A stretch of 37,606 nucleotides of DNA. Origin: Nitrospirota bacterium. GTDB lineage: Bacteria > Nitrospirota > Thermodesulfovibrionia > UBA6902. Position 1 is the stretch's first letter; the number at the start of each line of letters is the position of its first letter. The notes below the pieces were generated by a model. The model ran no database searches. It had not been told where the DNA came from and worked only from the letters and a program-made list of their open reading frames with translations. Made by a program: the position numbers and the translations under genes. Location: the NCBI GenBank assembly GCA_016213945.1, contig JACQZF010000074.1, forward strand, positions 1 through 37,606. Direction: 5' to 3'. Below, piece by piece: positions 19,348-25,956 of this stretch.

Positions 19348-20121
19348 ATGCTCCCATTAAAAGACAAAGTCGCTTTGATAACAGGCAGCTCAAGAGGCAT
19401 TGGAAACGCGATCGCGCGCAAGCTCGCCCTTGCCGGAGCGGACATCGTGGTAAATTTCAGGAAGGCCGGAGGCTCTTCTGAGCAACAGGCGGAACAACTG
19501 TGCAGGGAAGTGGAAGGAGTGGGACGCAGGAGCTTGATGGTCCAGGCTGATATAGCGGTAAAAGATTCGGTGAAAAAATTATTCGCCGAAGTGAATGAAA
19601 AATTCGGACGGCTCGACCTTCTTATTCTCAACGCTGCCAAGGCGCCTTTTAAACCTATCGAAAAACTCTTTGAGCGGGAGCTGCGGCAGCTGGTTGAAAC
19701 AAATTACCTCGGCAATATATTCTGCATTCAGGAGGCATTGCCCCTGCTTGAAAAATCAGGCGGGAAGATCGTATTTATCTCAAGCCTCGGCAGCCGGTTT
19801 TATAATCCTGCTTACCCGCTTGGCAGCATGAAGGCCGCGATGGAATCAGTGGTCAGGGACTGCGCTGAAGGACTGAGGCAAAAGAACGTATCGGTCAACG
19901 CGGTCTGCGGCGGCATTGTCAAGACCGATTCTTTTAAAGTGCTGAGACAGTTCTGGGAGAATATCGACATGCTGCCGGAGAGTCTTTTTGTAGAGCCGGA
20001 TGAATTGGCGGACGTCGTGGTCTTTTTATGCGGCAGTGAAAGCAGGGGGATCACAGGCCAGACGATCGTTGTCGACAAAGGGCTTAGCAACGCGATCTGC
20101 AGACTGCCGGAGAGTAAATGA
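19348..20121 (+). CDS. FabL-like short-chain reductase (enoyl-ACP reductase III type)
   Basis: 'ALITGSSRGIGNAIARKLALAGADIVVNF' is the Rossmann NAD(P)-binding start with TGxxxGIG. 'ISSLGSRFYNPAYPLGSMKAAMES' matches the FabL active-site region better than FabG, and 'VNAVCGGIVKTDSFK' resembles the FabL 'VNAVSGG' loop. The spacing between the catalytic Tyr and Lys is five residues (Y-PLGSM-K), against three in ordinary SDRs and six in Bacillus FabL as I recall it. It would reduce enoyl-ACP or 3-oxoacyl-ACP with NADPH. The next genes encode an acyl carrier protein and a ketosynthase, which supports an acyl-chain role. Length 257 is normal. The exact substrate is uncertain. Confidence 0.8.
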   Translation: MLPLKDKVALITGSSRGIGNAIARKLALAGADIVVNFRKAGGSSEQQAEQLCREVEGVGRRSLMVQADIAVKDSVKKLFAEVNEKFGRLDLLILNAAKAPFKPIEKLFERELRQLVETNYLGNIFCIQEALPLLEKSGGKIVFISSLGSRFYNPAYPLGSMKAAMESVVRDCAEGLRQKNVSVNAVCGGIVKTDSFKVLRQFWENIDMLPESLFVEPDELADVVVFLCGSESRGITGQTIVVDKGLSNAICRLPESK

Positions 20122-20132
20122 CATGAGAAACA

Positions 20133-20196
20133 GAAGTTGAGAATCTGGGAAGTTGAGAAGCTGGGACAAAGAATAAACCCTGTCTTTCTCAACTTC
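20133..20196 (+). repeat. Hairpin with two competing left arms before the ACP gene
   Basis: GAAGTTGAGAA occurs at 20133-20143 and again at 20149-20159. One perfect complement, TTCTCAACTTC, lies at 20186-20196. Either left arm can pair with it. The structure ends about 14 bases before the GGAGG ribosome site of the ACP gene. A related sequence lies at 29882-29944. Confidence 0.6.
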
Positions 20197-20219
20197 TTTC
20201 TAAATATTAAGGAGGCATT

Positions 20220-20783
20220 ATGGGTCAGAACCTTGTTACAGAGGAAAAAGTTTTTGGAGAATTGAAAAAGGCCGTTGTTGAAACGCTGAGGGCGGATGAA
20301 AATAAAATAAAACCTGAAACGTCTTTGATAAAAGACCTGGGGGCCGAGTCGCTCGATTTCCTTGATATCAACTACAGGCTGGAGCAGGCGTTGGGCATCA
20401 AGATGGCCCGCCATTTTGTACTTGAACATATAGAGGAAATATACGGCGAGGGCACTGCCCTTGATGAGAACGGCCAGTTGACGGACAAGGCTGTCGCGGT
20501 GCTGAAGATCAGGTTCGGCGAAAATGTCGCCGAGTTAAGACCCGGAATGGACATGGACGAGATACCCGCTCTGGTCACCGCACAGTCGATGGTGAGCGGC
20601 GTGATGGACATCCTCGACAGCCTGCCTGAGAAATGCACAAAGTGCGGCGCATCTTCATGGAAATCAGAGGACGGCGTCCGCGTCAAGTGCGGTTCCTGCG
20701 GCGAGGCAGCGGAATACGCAAACGGCGACGACTTGATCAAGGCATGGCTTACAAAAGTACAGGAAGAGAAGAAGCTTTTTTAA
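20220..20783 (+). CDS. Acyl carrier protein fused to a C-terminal zinc ribbon
   Basis: Residues ~10-80 form an acyl carrier protein domain. 'LIKDLGAESLDFLDINYRLEQALGIKM' contains Ser44, the expected 4'-phosphopantetheine site; the usual Asp before it is Glu here. After a linker, 'CTKCGASSWKSEDGVRVKCGSC' places Cys139, Cys142, Cys157 and Cys160 as a zinc ribbon. The total of 187 residues is about twice a normal ACP. A strong AAGGAGG site lies 7 bases before the ATG. It sits between the FabL-like reductase and the ketosynthase, so it probably carries the growing acyl chain for those enzymes. The ribbon may dock a partner protein; that part is inference. Confidence 0.85.
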   Translation: MGQNLVTEEKVFGELKKAVVETLRADENKIKPETSLIKDLGAESLDFLDINYRLEQALGIKMARHFVLEHIEEIYGEGTALDENGQLTDKAVAVLKIRFGENVAELRPGMDMDEIPALVTAQSMVSGVMDILDSLPEKCTKCGASSWKSEDGVRVKCGSCGEAAEYANGDDLIKAWLTKVQEEKKLF

Positions 20784-20825
20784 CTCATATTAAGGTTCTT
20801 ATAATAGTCTGTACATTTCTGAGGT

Positions 20826-20902
20826 GTCATTCCCGCATGTCTTTAGCGGGAATCCAGTAGTTTTAAGTCTCTGGATGCCCGATTAAAAACCTCGGGCATG
20901 AC
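20826..20902. repeat. Dispersed palindrome between ACP and ketosynthase genes
   Basis: A long-form copy with GTCATTCCCG and CGGGCATGAC ends and the inner 'gcgggaatccagt' and 'ctggatgcccgatt' blocks. It splits two genes that otherwise look like one operon and could cause partial attenuation. Confidence 0.7.
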
Positions 20903-20944
20903 GGACAAAGATCGACAGTTTGTATAACTCTTAACTTCGATAAA

Positions 20945-22240
20945 ATGACTATGCAATCTTTAAAACGCAGGGTGGTAATAACCGGATACGGGATGGTTAC
21001 GCCTTCGGGAAAAAATACCGTGGAGACCTTTGAGAACTGTACAAAAGGCGTCTCCGGCGTTGACTACATCAAATCTTTTGACACCACTGGCTTTCCCTGC
21101 CGGATCGCAGGTGAAGTCGACGATCAGTGGATCGAGGATTTTGAGAACAGGACCGATCAGAAGCTGAGAAAATTCTCCTCCCGCGGCCTCAGATTAATGA
21201 GGATCGCCGCAGCAGAGGCGGCAGAGATGGCAAGCCTTGATAAAGTTGACGACCGCGGCGGCATCGGCGTTTCCCTCGGCTCCCACGGCGACAACCCCTC
21301 TGTCAATGAAATGCTGTTCGTCAATAAGTTCTATGACGGCGAAGGCCATTGGGACATGAAAAAACTTACACAGAGCGGCGGGTATCCCTACATGCTTTTT
21401 TTCCGCAGAAAGCCCGATACCGCAACGTCCCTGCTTGCTACCCTTTTTAATTGCAAGGGGCCGACACTCTCAATAGTCTCAGCCTGCGCCGCGGGCTCTC
21501 AGGCCATCGGCGAGGCGTTCAGGATAATCCAGGATGGAAAAAGCGATGTCATGATCGCCGGAGGCTGTGAGGCGACAATTGATTTCGCGGGCATGACCGG
21601 GTTCATTTTATTGAAAGCGCTTTGTGAGAAATATACAACACCCCAGACAGCGTCCCGGCCTTTTGACAGGAAGAGGAACGGTTTCGTAATGTCCGAAGGC
21701 GCGGCAGCGGTGATACTTGAAGATCTTGAACACGCGCGCGCAAGAGGGGCGCAGATATTGGGCGAGCTGAAAGGCTACGGCTCATCCGCCGACGCCTACC
21801 GCATAACCGACACGCACCCCAAGGGACTCGGCGCGATAATAGCGATCAAGGCCGCGATAGATGACGCAGACATTTCGCTTGATCAGGTTGAATACATTAA
21901 CGCGCACGGCACATCTACACAGCAGAATGATCTGACCGAGACGCGGGCGATAAAAGAAGTGTTCGGCGAAAGGGCGAAAGATATTCCGGTGAGTTCAAAT
22001 AAATCCATGTTAGGCCACACCATTGCCGCGGCAGGGGCCATTGAATGCATCCTGACTCTCGTGGGAATAACCCGTTCCATCATCCTGCCGACGATCAACC
22101 ACGAATCCCGCGACCCCAAATGCGACCTCGACTATGTTCCCAACGAGGCAAGGCGCAAAGAGCACCGCGTCGCCATCTCCAACTCCTTCGGCTTCGGCGG
22201 CCAGAACGCGTGTCTCTGCATCGGGGCGTTTGAAGGCTGA
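20945..22240 (+). CDS. Beta-ketoacyl-ACP synthase II-like (FabF family)
   Basis: This is a condensing enzyme that joins malonyl-ACP to an acyl chain. 'RRVVITGYGMVTPSGKNTVETF' is the usual start. The catalytic Cys181 lies in 'SIVSACAAGSQAIGEAF'. His321 in 'NAHGTSTQQND' and His358 in 'NKSMLGHTIAAAGAIE' complete the Cys-His-His triad, and 'NSFGFGGQNACL' closes the fold. The length of 431 residues is slightly above FabF (~412). It follows the FabL-like and ACP genes, so the three probably make or modify one acyl product. It lacks an obvious malonyltransferase partner here, so it may draw on the general pool. Whether it serves housekeeping or special lipids is not known. Confidence 0.9.
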   Translation: MTMQSLKRRVVITGYGMVTPSGKNTVETFENCTKGVSGVDYIKSFDTTGFPCRIAGEVDDQWIEDFENRTDQKLRKFSSRGLRLMRIAAAEAAEMASLDKVDDRGGIGVSLGSHGDNPSVNEMLFVNKFYDGEGHWDMKKLTQSGGYPYMLFFRRKPDTATSLLATLFNCKGPTLSIVSACAAGSQAIGEAFRIIQDGKSDVMIAGGCEATIDFAGMTGFILLKALCEKYTTPQTASRPFDRKRNGFVMSEGAAAVILEDLEHARARGAQILGELKGYGSSADAYRITDTHPKGLGAIIAIKAAIDDADISLDQVEYINAHGTSTQQNDLTETRAIKEVFGERAKDIPVSSNKSMLGHTIAAAGAIECILTLVGITRSIILPTINHESRDPKCDLDYVPNEARRKEHRVAISNSFGFGGQNACLCIGAFEG

Positions 22241-22422: not shown

Positions 22423-22674
22423 ATGTCAAACGATAAATCTTTAGTTCCAATTGAACGGATTGAAAAAACAATACTTTTTATCAGAGAACAGAAGGTCATG
22501 CTCGATGCTGACCTTGCAGACCTGTACGGAGCCTCTACAAAAGTTCTCAATCAGGCGGTTAAGCGCAACAAAGAACGCTTTCCGAACGAGTTCATGTTCC
22601 AACTGATAAAACATGAAAAAGAAGAGGTGGTCACAAATTGTGACCACCTTAAAAAGCTGAAGAATATTTTTTAA
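22423..22674 (+). pseudogene. Truncated ORF6N-domain protein
   Basis: The 83-residue product has the ORF6N signature: 'PIERIEKTILFIREQKVMLDADLADLYGASTKVLNQAVKRNKERFP'. ORF6N is a DNA-binding domain of phage and mobile-element proteins. The family normally continues after 'VVTNCDHLKKLK' with a segment ending in '(F)TEHG', but here a stop follows 'LKKLKNIF'. The break lies 23 bases after a perfect 25 bp palindrome. A second, broken ORF6N gene starts 15 bases downstream. The short product may still fold as a DNA-binding domain, but most of the usual protein is missing. Confidence 0.75.
22625..22649. repeat. Perfect 25 bp palindrome within ORF6N coding sequence
   Basis: AGGTGGTCACAA, one central A, and TTGTGACCACCT. 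It encodes the conserved 'EVVTNCDHL' motif of ORF6N proteins. It could be an operator bound by the protein itself, or a recombination site. Confidence 0.75.
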
Positions 22675-22689
22675 GTAAAGGGGACAGGC

Positions 22690-23113
22690 ATGAACGAAAT
22701 AATTCCAATTGAAGTAATTCAGCAAAAAATATTTCTGGTCCGGGGGCAGAAAGTGATGCTCGATAAGGACCTGGCAGAACTTTATGGCGTTAAACCGATC
22801 AGGTTAAGAGAGCCCTTCGAGGAAGCACCTCGGCGGCCATAGACCTTATGTTTTTTCCGAACAAGGCGTTGCGATGCTGGCCACTGTCCTTAATAGCGAA
22901 ACAGCCATACTTGCAAACATCGCAATTATGAGAGCATTTGTAAAACTCAGACAAATCCTTTCGACACATAAGGAACTTGCTCATAAGTTAATTGGACTTG
23001 AAAGAAAAATAGAAAATCACGATGAAGAAATACACACGATATTTGAGGCCATCCGGCAATTGATGGCCCCGCCGGAGCCGGGCAAGAAGAAGATCGGGTT
23101 TATGAGGGAATGA
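22690..23113 (+). pseudogene. ORF6N-domain gene broken by internal deletion and frameshift
   Basis: The first frame starts 'MNEIIPIEVIQQKIFLVRGQ' and runs to 'DLAELYGVKPIRLRE', then reaches a TAG at 22842. Another frame then reads 'SRKHLGGHRPYVFSEQGVAML', the usual later part of the same family, and continues to 'PEPGKKKIGFMRE' with a stop at 23113. The middle of the domain (the 'QAVKRN...RFP' helix and following loop) is missing. A deletion near 22810-22820 that also shifted the frame explains both facts. The full gene would be about 170-180 residues. The C-terminal part includes a coiled coil ('LAHKLIGLERKIENHDEEI'). It is non-functional as written. Confidence 0.8.
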
Positions 23114-23309
23114 AAAAGCGGGATAGCTCGTAAGTGTGGGGAGAGACGGCACAGGGTCGCGTCTTGTTTCTTGTATTTTGCATTTTCCCATCAACTTAAG
23201 TCCCCCTTTCAAATTCCCACTGTCCCCCATTATCCACATTCTTCTCAGTATAAAACAGTGCACAAATGCAAAAGTCCGTAAGCGCAGAAGCATCCATGAT
23301 CCATTAGAA

Positions 23310-24152
23310 TCAATCATCTCCTTTGTCAGTCTTTCCCCGCCCTGCAAGCCGCTTGAGTGCATAAGTGCCAATTAGAGATTTCAGTTGGTTTATCGCGATA
23401 TCATTTAATTGCCTCAACCTTTCCGGCTGTGCAAGGCCCTGATGGATCAGCACGGCATTGATGCTTTCCAGATTCGAGAGAACCACCAGTTGTTCCAGGG
23501 CAGCGTAATCCCGCAGATTGCCTGCCTTGCCGGGATTTCCCTGCCGCCATTCTCCCGCCGTCATGCCGAACAGCGCCACATTCAGCAGATCTGCTTCATT
23601 GGCGTAGATAAAGTTTGACTGCATCTTGGAAATACGCGGCGGAATTAGTTTATCCTTAATTGCGTCTGTGTGGATTTTGTAGTTGACCTTTGCGAGGGTG
23701 CGCTGAAGATTCCACTCCAGGGATTGTGTCCGGTACTCCTCTTCCTTTAACCTCTGGAATTCCTTGATCAGGTAGATCTTGAATTCCGGACTGATCCACA
23801 TGCCGAATTCAAAAGCGATGTCCTTATGCGCATAGGTGCCCCCGTATCTTCCTGCGGTTGCTTTCAGGCCTATGGCATGAGTCTTATTGACCCACTCCTT
23901 GACGCTTATCTTGTAGCTGTTGAGTCCTGCCTGATTTCTAATTATGGCGAATTCGCCATAATTAAAGTCGGGGTTGTAGATGCTCTCCCATATGCCAAGA
24001 AACTCGACGGTGTTGCGGTTTCTCAGCCAGTCCGATATAAAAAAATCTCCGTCTTTCGCCTTCAGCATATCCGTCAGGGAAATATAGTCTTCCTGATTGT
24101 GTGAAAAGATGGAGATTTCGGAACCCATGACCTTGATGATCCGTTTTTTCAT
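23310..24152 (-). CDS. KilA-N domain protein
   Basis: Landmarks 'EDYISLTDMLKAKDGDFFISDWLRNRNTVEFLGIWE', 'NYGEFAIIRNQAGLNSYKIS' and 'GRYGGTYAHKDIAFEFGMWISPEFK' identify a KilA-N DNA-binding domain of the type found in phage and mobile-element antirepressors. The rest of the 280-residue protein is helical ('QSLEWNLQRTLAKVNYKIHTDAI') and ends in a Lys/Asp-rich tail. Its ATG overlaps the stop of a DUF262 gene fragment (ATGA), with GGAGTGAG upstream. A perfect 26 bp palindrome lies inside at the 'NYGEFAII' codons. The frame is complete. Role is probably regulation or defence of a mobile element; no target is known. Confidence 0.85.
   Translation of the reverse strand: MKKRIIKVMGSEISIFSHNQEDYISLTDMLKAKDGDFFISDWLRNRNTVEFLGIWESIYNPDFNYGEFAIIRNQAGLNSYKISVKEWVNKTHAIGLKATAGRYGGTYAHKDIAFEFGMWISPEFKIYLIKEFQRLKEEEYRTQSLEWNLQRTLAKVNYKIHTDAIKDKLIPPRISKMQSNFIYANEADLLNVALFGMTAGEWRQGNPGKAGNLRDYAALEQLVVLSNLESINAVLIHQGLAQPERLRQLNDIAINQLKSLIGTYALKRLAGRGKTDKGDD
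23939..23964. repeat. Perfect 26 bp palindrome within the KilA-N gene
   Basis: TAATTATGGCGAA followed directly by TTCGCCATAATTA. It encodes 'NYGEFAII', a conserved stretch of the KilA-N family. With no loop it is a good candidate operator or strand-exchange site rather than a terminator. Confidence 0.8.
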
Positions 24153-24253
24153 TGCGATGCTCTCACTCCGGCCCCGGTACGCTGATAGACAGGAATAACA
24201 AACTGCTTCGGCCCCTTCAGAAAATTCATCAGATTAACGGCTTGCGCTATCAC
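24149..24253 (-). pseudogene. 5' fragment of a DUF262 (GmrSD-type) gene, copy 1
   Basis: From a GTG with GGAGGGGGG upstream, the frame reads 'IAQAVNLMNFLKGPKQFVIPVYQR' and then leaves the family after 'QRT'. 'F(I/V)IPxYQR' is the N-terminal signature of DUF262, the nucleotide-sensing nuclease part of GmrSD-type defence enzymes. The remainder (over 500 residues in the family) is absent. Its TGA overlaps the KilA-N start codon. An upstream ATG at 24286 is also in frame. Confidence 0.7.
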
Positions 24254-24325
24254 TATTTTTCTGGCCCCCCCTCCAAAAGGTTTCATAATGATAATACGAC
24301 AAGTCTATTAAAGACAAGAACTATT
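24180..24325. repeat. Direct repeat copy 1, upstream of the KilA-N gene
   Basis: About 146 bp, closely matching 25812-25956. It covers the DUF262 5' coding stretch, its ribosome site and presumed promoter region. It ends in 'aaagacaagaactatt', found a third time at 24384-24399. Confidence 0.85.
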
Positions 24326-24333
24326 TATTCTTG

Positions 24334-24370
24334 TCAGCCGTCAGCGATCAGCGGTCAGCTTTCAGCTTAA
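24334..24370. repeat. Dispersed 'cagcgatcagcggtcagc' repeat
   Basis: A short run of degenerate 'tcagc' units between the repeat copy and the 3' end of the AlbA_2 gene. Such sequences are common dispersed fillers; no function is visible. Confidence 0.45.
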
Positions 24371-24423
24371 GAAAGGAGTTCATAAAGACAAGAACTATTT
24401 CCTGCCATACATTGCCATGCCTT

Positions 24424-25749
24424 TCATTTCTTCACCACTTCCCAGTATCCGCCCTTGTCCGGGCCGATGCGTTTAAGGATACCCTTTTTTCTAAGTTTGG
24501 TTATATGGTATTTTACTCCGTCTTCAGTTATCCCTATAGCTGCTGCCAGATCTTTTTGTGTGATATCTGATTTTCTGGTAATAGCTTCTATGATTTTCTG
24601 GGTAGTTTTCTGGGTAGTTTTCTGGGTAGTTTCTACGACCTTTTTGCTCTCATAATAGCTTTTCCGCTTAAATGTCGCGATAAACTTCGTCCCTACTTCA
24701 CTGAACCTGGCATCTGGCTCTTTTGATATGATAAGTTTGATTCCCCGTCCCCACTTCTCGATAAAATGAACGCGGTGAAACATATCGGCGAGCAACTCGT
24801 TTCTTCTCTCTGAAACCATCTTTGTCCTGATGGTCTCAATCGTCAGGCCGCCATAAAGAAGTCCCGGACTCCTTATCTCCACCCGGTCTTTGAAAACAGC
24901 AATGTTTACAGAATCAAACTCTCGGTAATCCCTATGGCAGAAGGCATTGATTATTGCTTCTCTGAAAGCAGCCTTGTCAATCTCGGGCACATCCACTCTT
25001 CTCAGGCCCTCCAGCCGCATACCGATATGAATGTTCTTAAGGATATATTCTTCAGCCTTTGCTATCAGATGGAAAATGTCCCCTTCAAAGTCCTGCATGT
25101 CGATGGTAAATGTCGTATCCGTTGTGCCGAAAACGGCACACCGCAAGCGGGCATTAGGAAAAAACTTTTGCGGCTTCCTGGCAAACAGGAACACCGCCGC
25201 ATTGAGCATTTTCCCATCAACAAGGAGCTTTAGTTTTTCAAAGGCGTTTCGAATGGTGTCATATTTCAGGCCTGAATTTTTCAAATAAAGTTTAACCTTC
25301 TGGGCGCTTATGTCCGTAAGTTTTGCCTCCTTACAGATTTCGATATCCCATCTCAGCTTGTCTTTATTCTTTCTGACGAACATGCCTTCAAGCGTCTTTG
25401 CGCTTAATTGCCGGTCTTCGTCCGCAACCCTTATATATGCCCTTCCATATGCAAAATACGGAATATCATTTCCCTTAAATCGAATTTTGATACAGGACTT
25501 GCCGTCTATTTCGATATGGTTTATGTGAGGATAGATTTTAGGTTCAATGTGATCGGCAATGGCTTTTGATATATCACGGATTGTTTTTTCCGTTATGTTC
25601 TGACCGGAAACAGCGCCATTGCTTTTAATTCCAAAAAACAATTCCCCGTGCTGATGTTTATTGAGGATCGCAGCTATAGATATAATCGCCTCTTTAATCT
25701 CAGAGGTGCTTTTTTTCAACTCCAGCGTTTCGGATTCAATAAGTTTCAT
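24424..25749 (-). CDS. AlbA_2 / RecG-like ATP-binding protein with C-terminal winged helix
   Basis: Residues ~1-110 form an AlbA_2 (Schlafen-type) domain: 'ESETLELKKSTSEIKEAIISIAAILN' and 'GELFFGIKSNGAVSGQNI'. Residues ~265-350 match the HATPase_c_4 / RecG-like region ('AFREAIINAFCHRDYREFDSVNIAVF', 'SPGLLYGGLT', 'RRNELLADMF'). The C-terminal ~60 residues form a winged helix ('DITQKDLAAAIGITEDGVKYHITKLRKKGILKR'). A TTQK tandem repeat links the two parts. The length of 441 is normal and the frame is intact. These proteins are often annotated as transcriptional regulators or helicases and occur in defence islands. Here it sits between two DUF262 fragments. Confidence 0.85.
   Translation of the reverse strand: MKLIESETLELKKSTSEIKEAIISIAAILNKHQHGELFFGIKSNGAVSGQNITEKTIRDISKAIADHIEPKIYPHINHIEIDGKSCIKIRFKGNDIPYFAYGRAYIRVADEDRQLSAKTLEGMFVRKNKDKLRWDIEICKEAKLTDISAQKVKLYLKNSGLKYDTIRNAFEKLKLLVDGKMLNAAVFLFARKPQKFFPNARLRCAVFGTTDTTFTIDMQDFEGDIFHLIAKAEEYILKNIHIGMRLEGLRRVDVPEIDKAAFREAIINAFCHRDYREFDSVNIAVFKDRVEIRSPGLLYGGLTIETIRTKMVSERRNELLADMFHRVHFIEKWGRGIKLIISKEPDARFSEVGTKFIATFKRKSYYESKKVVETTQKTTQKTTQKIIEAITRKSDITQKDLAAAIGITEDGVKYHITKLRKKGILKRIGPDKGGYWEVVKK
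24599..24638 (-). repeat. 12 bp tandem repeat coding TTQK
   Basis: Three copies of a 12-base unit ('ttttctgggtag' on the + strand) encode TTQK-TTQK-TTQK between the ATP-binding part and the winged helix. Copy number could change by slippage without shifting the frame. Confidence 0.75.
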
Positions 25750-25756
25750 CTTCCAG

Positions 25757-25885
25757 TTACGTCGTTACTATCATGAATTCGGGGTAATTAAAACAGGAAT
25801 TACTACAGGTGCGCTGATAGATAGGGATAATAAACTGCTTCGGCCCCTTCAGAAAATTCATCGTATTAACAGCTTGCGCTATCAC
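25757..25885 (-). pseudogene. 5' fragment of a DUF262 (GmrSD-type) gene, copy 2
   Basis: From a GTG with a G-rich ribosome site, the frame reads 'IAQAVNTMNFLKGPKQFIIPIYQR' and leaves the family after 'QRT', the same codon as in copy 1. The following residues (CSNSCFNYPEF) are unrelated to those after copy 1. The stop lies 7 bases before the AlbA_2 ATG. Confidence 0.7.
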
Positions 25886-25956
25886 TGTTTTTCTGGTCCC
25901 CCCCTAAAAGGTTTAATAATGATAATACGACATGCCTGTTAAAGACAAGAACTATT
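25812..25956. repeat. Direct repeat copy 2, upstream of the AlbA_2 gene
   Basis: About 145 bp, differing from copy 1 at scattered positions. Several differences change DUF262 codons conservatively (V to I), as expected for paralogues rather than a fresh duplication. Confidence 0.85.

Follow-up and report, generated by a model that had tools for sequence, protein, structure and literature searches.

In integrons, exchangeable gene cassettes, which frequently carry defence genes, are arrayed in tandem in a single direction. The mobility of promoters has been proposed before. At the core defence hotspot cDHS1 of Pseudomonas aeruginosa, varied defence systems lie at one locus between constant flanks, and recombination in the flanks has been proposed (PMC10250203). 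In horizontal regulatory transfer, also described as the switching of intergenic regions, recombination parts promoters from genes and rejoins them anew (PMC5890482). The system described here likewise has different defence genes at one locus and would likewise re-pair promoters and genes by recombination. The constant part of cDHS1 is a core-gene pair, whereas here it is the short promoter-leader of each unit, at many loci; horizontal regulatory transfer keeps the gene and replaces the promoter, whereas here it is the gene that is exchanged, behind a promoter that stays. Integron arrays resemble the units described below in their single direction, tandem order and exchangeable, often defence-related, genes, but each unit here has its own 5' promoter, and no tyrosine integrase lies near it in the five genomes searched. 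With respect to complete GmrSD (DUF262-DUF1524) genes, the coding part of the module studied here is the start of such a gene, but the module carries remnants only. In the open-access literature, outside which subscription papers lie, we found neither a description of this promoter nor a case in which defence genes are exchanged behind a promoter-leader that stays constant.

The window, that is, the whole 37,606-nt stretch analyzed, is contig C53 of a 98% complete, 3.5-Mb Nitrospirota assembly (labeled G000). The other carriers are Nitrospirae and Thermodesulfovibrionia MAGs, many of them derived from groundwater, and nearly all genomes compared were MAGs. The assembly also holds a second, distant rpoC (G000:C90:7656-8366; 61-66% identity), perhaps the result of MAG contamination.

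Two copies of the module, 90% identical to each other (E 3e-52), lie on the minus strand of the window. Copy 2 (25956-25808, 149 nt) stands 58 nt 5' of an AlbA_2 gene (24424..25749, minus strand) with Schlafen AlbA_2, HATPase_c_4 and HTH domains in Pfam, and copy 1 (24325-24176, 150 nt) stands 23 nt 5' of a KilA-N gene (23310..24152, minus strand; named by Pfam, and PDC-S22 in PADLOC). Each copy comprises a promoter-like region and codons 1-26 of a DUF262 gene, with a promoter-like core ending CGTATTATCATTA, then a stretch rich in G, then an open frame that starts at GTG and translates in both to VIAQAVNxMNFLKGPKQFxIPxYQRT. These 5' remnants of DUF262, from the GTG start to QRT, occupy 25808..25885 in copy 2 and 24176..24253 in copy 1 (both minus strand), and a 33-nt conserved core occupies 25917..25949, where it includes a -10-like TATTAT, and 24286..24318 (both minus strand). 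A 17-nt trace of the module's left end, AATAGTTCTTGTCTTTA, is found at 24399-24383 on the same strand; its 17-mer core occurs three times in the window against 0.01 expected. A sequence-only reading had claimed two copies of a promoter and DUF262 start, one before AlbA_2 and one before KilA-N on the same strand, with a short third trace, and in all of this it was right. It had also described both copies as ending at QRT and then joining unrelated DNA. The common end stands, but the DNA beyond is a KilA-N flank in one case and about 30 nt resembling KilA-N in the other. The flank fused to copy 1 is GGGGCCGGAGTGAGAGCATCGC (24154..24175, minus strand), which also follows a longer DUF262 piece in L058. 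The short piece between copy 2 and AlbA_2 (25775..25807, minus strand) was read by eye against L051 and L069 as NNPVFNSPEFE, which is like the interior of KilA-N; a BLAST comparison with the window's own KilA-N did not return it. Separately, a short dispersed repeat, AGCTGAAAGCTGACCGCTGATYGCTGACGGCTGA, at 24330-24370 (minus strand) also occurs upstream of the promoter in L056 and L060, with the same end-to-promoter distance in these three independent copies.

The coding part had been read as the N-terminus of a DUF262 protein, and alignment of the longer L058 piece to full-length and annotated DUF262 proteins bears this out: it matches annotated DUF262/DUF1524 proteins at 60-66% and a full-length 694-aa DUF262 gene from another family at 86%. 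The window copies, of 26 codons each, are not complete GmrSD N- and C-terminal domains. Among the 47 genomes of the order there is no full-length DUF262 gene close to this N-terminus, the best full-length match being 43-47%; the window's own genome has only two other full-length DUF262 genes, both unrelated, and G129 has a complete DUF262 relative that lacks the promoter. The other end of the gene was found downstream of KilA-N, where a DUF262 3' end and 3' flank (23153..23278, minus strand), including the right-end motif ACAAGAAACAAGACGCGACCC (23154..23174, minus strand), are common to L051, L052, L053, L056, L057 and L059. The view that this piece is the 3' flank of KilA-N was dropped because in L057 a similar piece overlaps and continues a stretch matching residues 632-693 of full-length DUF262 (E 7e-27). 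Leaders that share the piece are thus DUF262 genes without their center, and in the window the KilA-N gene is flanked by the two ends, 5' and 3', of a DUF262 gene. On the opposite strand, the remains of ORF6N genes, including an 83-aa ORF6N fragment, are found at 22423-23113, with a second ORF6N-like start at 22700-22787 that is 72% identical to 22442-22529. The defence stretch is adjoined by genes for an SDR reductase, an acyl-carrier-like protein and a ketosynthase II (19348-22240, plus strand); the ketosynthase is placed elsewhere in the sister species.

The 150-nt module, used as a query, was found in 13 of the 37 genomes of the family and 16 of the 47 genomes of the order. The 33-nt core, counted as a pattern with a control, gave 35 sites in 17 of those 47 genomes and none when reversed, and it is retained at sites with a decayed DUF262 piece or none at all. 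In a one-genome-per-species collection the exact core pattern was confined to Nitrospirota records. The phylum search returned related leaders in other families of the class, and in G288 and G255 the promoter and DUF262 start stand before ORF6N. Tandem units, which occur in the window, L051, L054, L060 and L147, share one direction. Copies at so many loci and in so many genomes rule out a simple tandem duplication inside the window, and phage carriage was rejected after a scan of viral contigs in which neither pattern occurred. In two genomes (L055, L069) a tRNA-Leu gene immediately precedes the promoter-gene unit, a common position for islands.

The 5' part of the module is probably a promoter and putatively active. 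Both copies contain a sigma-70-like TTGTCT-18-TATCAT with 9 of 12 consensus matches, a motif whose count in a consensus scan is not above that in shuffles, and transcription would start just past TATTATCATTA. In copy 1 a palindrome, GACAAGAA-N7-TTCTTGTC, crosses the upstream edge of the 33-nt core; it is present in a minority of copies. An Rfam scan of this stretch of the window gave no match. Strong selection on a leader peptide was rejected: over the 26 codons, variable columns number 11, 6 and 12 at codon positions 1, 2 and 3, which indicates no clear protein constraint. Translational coupling through a 4-nt overlap was also set aside, as the overlap occurs in window copy 1 and L052 but most copies lack it.

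The core sites stand mostly before defence families. By Pfam and PADLOC, the genes behind the promoter include restriction-modification components (XhoI endonuclease, HsdM, N6 and N4 methylases, a type IIG-like enzyme); YhcG/DUF1016, DUF4268, GmrSD, SoFic, DUF5131, TIR-TPR, SIR2-kinase and SIR2-STAND proteins; and GajA-like and other OLD-like ATPases, HATPases, a nucleotidyltransferase, ORF6N and KilA-N. At a PADLOC threshold of 1e-10, 23 of 30 cargo proteins, which were not randomly drawn, matched a defence model, against 5 of 20 nearest upstream neighbors (Fisher p 5e-4), two of those five being generic sigma-54 activators. Counting eight untested ordinary cargo genes as misses gives 23 of 38 against 5 of 20 (p 0.013). 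The enrichment in defence genes that characterizes a defence island or hotspot is therefore present, and the cargo probably works in defence. Some core sites do stand before ordinary genes (DUF541, an ORF before glyQ, a small conserved ORF, a cupin). Two proteins behind the promoter, one of 1080 aa (L056:434-3676, minus strand) and one of 566 aa (L081:2220-3920, minus strand), have no Pfam or PADLOC match and are candidate unknown defence genes.

The gene behind the promoter differs between relatives at orthologous loci. G000 and G026 are sister species (rpoC 95% identical at the nucleotide level). In G000:C69 and G026:C37 the upstream gene, the intergenic DNA and the promoter are 92-95% identical; identity ends just past the -10 region and is regained where the following gene has its stop codon, and between these points one genome has a ClpP-like protease and the other GmrSD. 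Beside dnaX, a 4-kb stretch that ends 41 nt into the module is 90% identical in L147 and L151, which carry different genes beyond it; L147 and L148 are one promoter-gene unit apart, with the promoter at the joint. At the window locus the sister species are similar as far as the znuB stop codon. Beyond it the window has the module with AlbA_2 and the module with KilA-N, whereas G026 has the promoter with DUF1016 and then the module with a HATPase gene; only the modules and the DUF262 3' end are common to both. These cases amount to two replacements, one gain or loss and one hotspot, and different defence genes at the same locus in relatives, as expected of a hotspot, were found at three orthologous loci. 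The site beside dnaX is a second hotspot, with the same promoter in L147, L148, L151 and L203, toxin-like, nucleotidyltransferase or trypsin-like genes, and a leader made of ORF6N remnants.

The leaders are also more alike than the genomes that carry them. Over 90 between-genome pairs their mean identity was 84.7%, compared with 79.3% for rpoC and 53% for rpoC third positions, and the leader exceeded rpoC in 80 of the 90 pairs. Between G029 and G036, which belong to different genera, the leader is 92% and rpoC 76% identical. Within the leader, identity is 92.5% over codons 1-18 of the dead DUF262 piece against 85% for the promoter part. A fragment of a dead gene, if inherited vertically, would not show this pattern, and on these comparisons the leader appears to travel between genomes.

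We consider it fairly probable that a conserved promoter-leader stays in place, and doubles as a homology arm, while the defence genes behind it turn over. The module would be a promoter of the class Thermodesulfovibrionia (Nitrospirota) joined to the remains of a GmrSD-like DUF262 gene that it once drove. Incoming defence genes would carry their own copy of the same promoter-leader, and homologous recombination, the presumed mechanism, would take place in the promoter or leader, so that the resident gene is replaced or a promoter-gene unit is added or removed in tandem; crossover tracts are not provable in promoters so short and near-identical. Later deletions, in part between direct repeats of short length like TCAGCGCACC, would erode the first gene to its 5' and 3' ends, with selection retaining the promoter. 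In the window, copy 1 and 23278-23153 would then be the two ends of one DUF262 gene, on either side of KilA-N, and copy 2 would stand before AlbA_2. Against this explanation are the small number of swaps, the fact that the genomes are almost all MAGs, the core sites before ordinary genes, and the greater conservation of the dead DUF262 piece relative to the promoter part.

Alignable module ends fall at positions 37-64, 85, 91, 115, 120, 125, 129 and 144-150, and in L054, L058 and L062 the alignment extends past the module end, the break in L054 coming after codon 37. These many other positions rule out a constant breakpoint at QRT in all copies. At the QRT ends there are at least three different right-hand partners, and the shared breakpoint is partly ordinary and has several origins. 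In L058 the promoter is followed by about 75 DUF262 codons, frame-shifted near their end, and then by GGGGCCGGAGGGAGAGCATCGCAATG of KilA-N. Window copy 1 equals this arrangement minus 154 nt, with QRT joined to the same GGGGCC sequence and the junction partner being the KilA-N 5' flank as present in L058; as judged from these alignments, copy 1 arose by deletion from the longer DUF262-KilA-N leader. In L053, L055, L056 and L059 the DUF262 piece passes into KilA-N at TCAGCGCACC, which is present in both genes and in the window lies at 25817-25808, at 24185-24176 (one mismatch) and within KilA-N at 23706-23697 (minus strand), the last having the same 10 nt as the DUF262 breakpoint. Such fusions are explained as deletions between direct repeats, with recombination at the 10 nt that DUF262 and KilA-N share. 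NNPVFNSPEFE is the point of entry into KilA-N in L051 and, as read by eye, in window copy 2.

The sequence-only reading had offered two deletions with a shared breakpoint, or a module that moves and acquires new cargo, and had proposed a search in which many copies would always break at the same codon before varied genes. Copy 1 is a deletion form of the L058 leader, but the QRT ends have several origins; the leader seems to travel with new genes behind it, but without a fixed QRT end. The search yielded many copies and varied genes across genus borders, but not one breaking codon. Since deletions shaped the junctions and the leader travels with new genes, each of the two options is partly right.

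An old operon of promoter, DUF262 and partner gene, in which each lineage independently lost the DUF262 center while the downstream genes needed the promoter, would account for some of these junctions with no exchange. It fits the 154-nt relation of copy 1 to L058, the retention of both DUF262 ends in several leaders and the differences in junction from copy to copy. It does not fit leaders at unrelated loci in different genera that are up to 92% identical where rpoC is 76% identical, the one TCAGCGCACC fusion junction common to leaders (L053, L055, L056, L059) whose downstream genes are now different, or the fact that the downstream gene itself differs at orthologous loci. We regard this explanation as unlikely.

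A further alternative is a MITE-like mobile unit with the promoter as left end, CAAGAAACAAGACCTGACCC as right end, and DUF262, KilA-N, ORF6N or nothing between them, mobilized in trans by a transposase or recombinase. The left end has the same first base in most copies. The DUF262 3' piece ends in a motif near CAAGAAACAAGACCTGACCC, which is present after the first gene, or straight after the promoter, in 13 of 48 copies against 0 in the control, and the loci are scattered, two of them after the tRNA-Leu genes. However, terminal inverted repeats are unconvincing: the best 16-nt match between the left end and the reversed right end was 9-12, a value reached by 4-142 of 200 shuffles. No tyrosine integrase was found near any module copy in G000, G023, G026, G029 and G036, the sole one on a module contig being 120 kb away, and the compared genomes yielded no clean empty site with a target duplication. 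A MITE-like origin is therefore doubtful. Dedicated exchange of defence cassettes, with promoter-to-CAAGAAACAAGACCTGACCC units moved between loci and species by a putative recombinase, also seems improbable to us; if it were true, a gene placed in such a unit would be expressed and regulated at once. A static regulon, in which the core is the operator and promoter of one regulator and selection preserves its likeness, would suit the conserved spacer and -10, the palindrome of some copies and the persistence of the core without a DUF262 piece, but is very unlikely given that the common sequence extends well into a dead gene, in a piece more alike than the promoter part, and that most copies lack the palindrome; regulation is in any case compatible with gene turnover behind the promoter-leader, not exclusive of it.

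Turnover of defence genes behind a conserved promoter-leader would bear on a general problem. Defence genes turn over fast, yet a newcomer needs a safe expression level at once, and a portable promoter-leader that serves as both control region and homology arm would solve this. The promoter would also provide a sequence handle for unknown defence genes, in that anything behind it is a candidate, and the leaders keep remnants of earlier occupants in order, so that part of the history of gene replacement is readable. The pattern suggests that bacteria may change their defences without losing control of expression.
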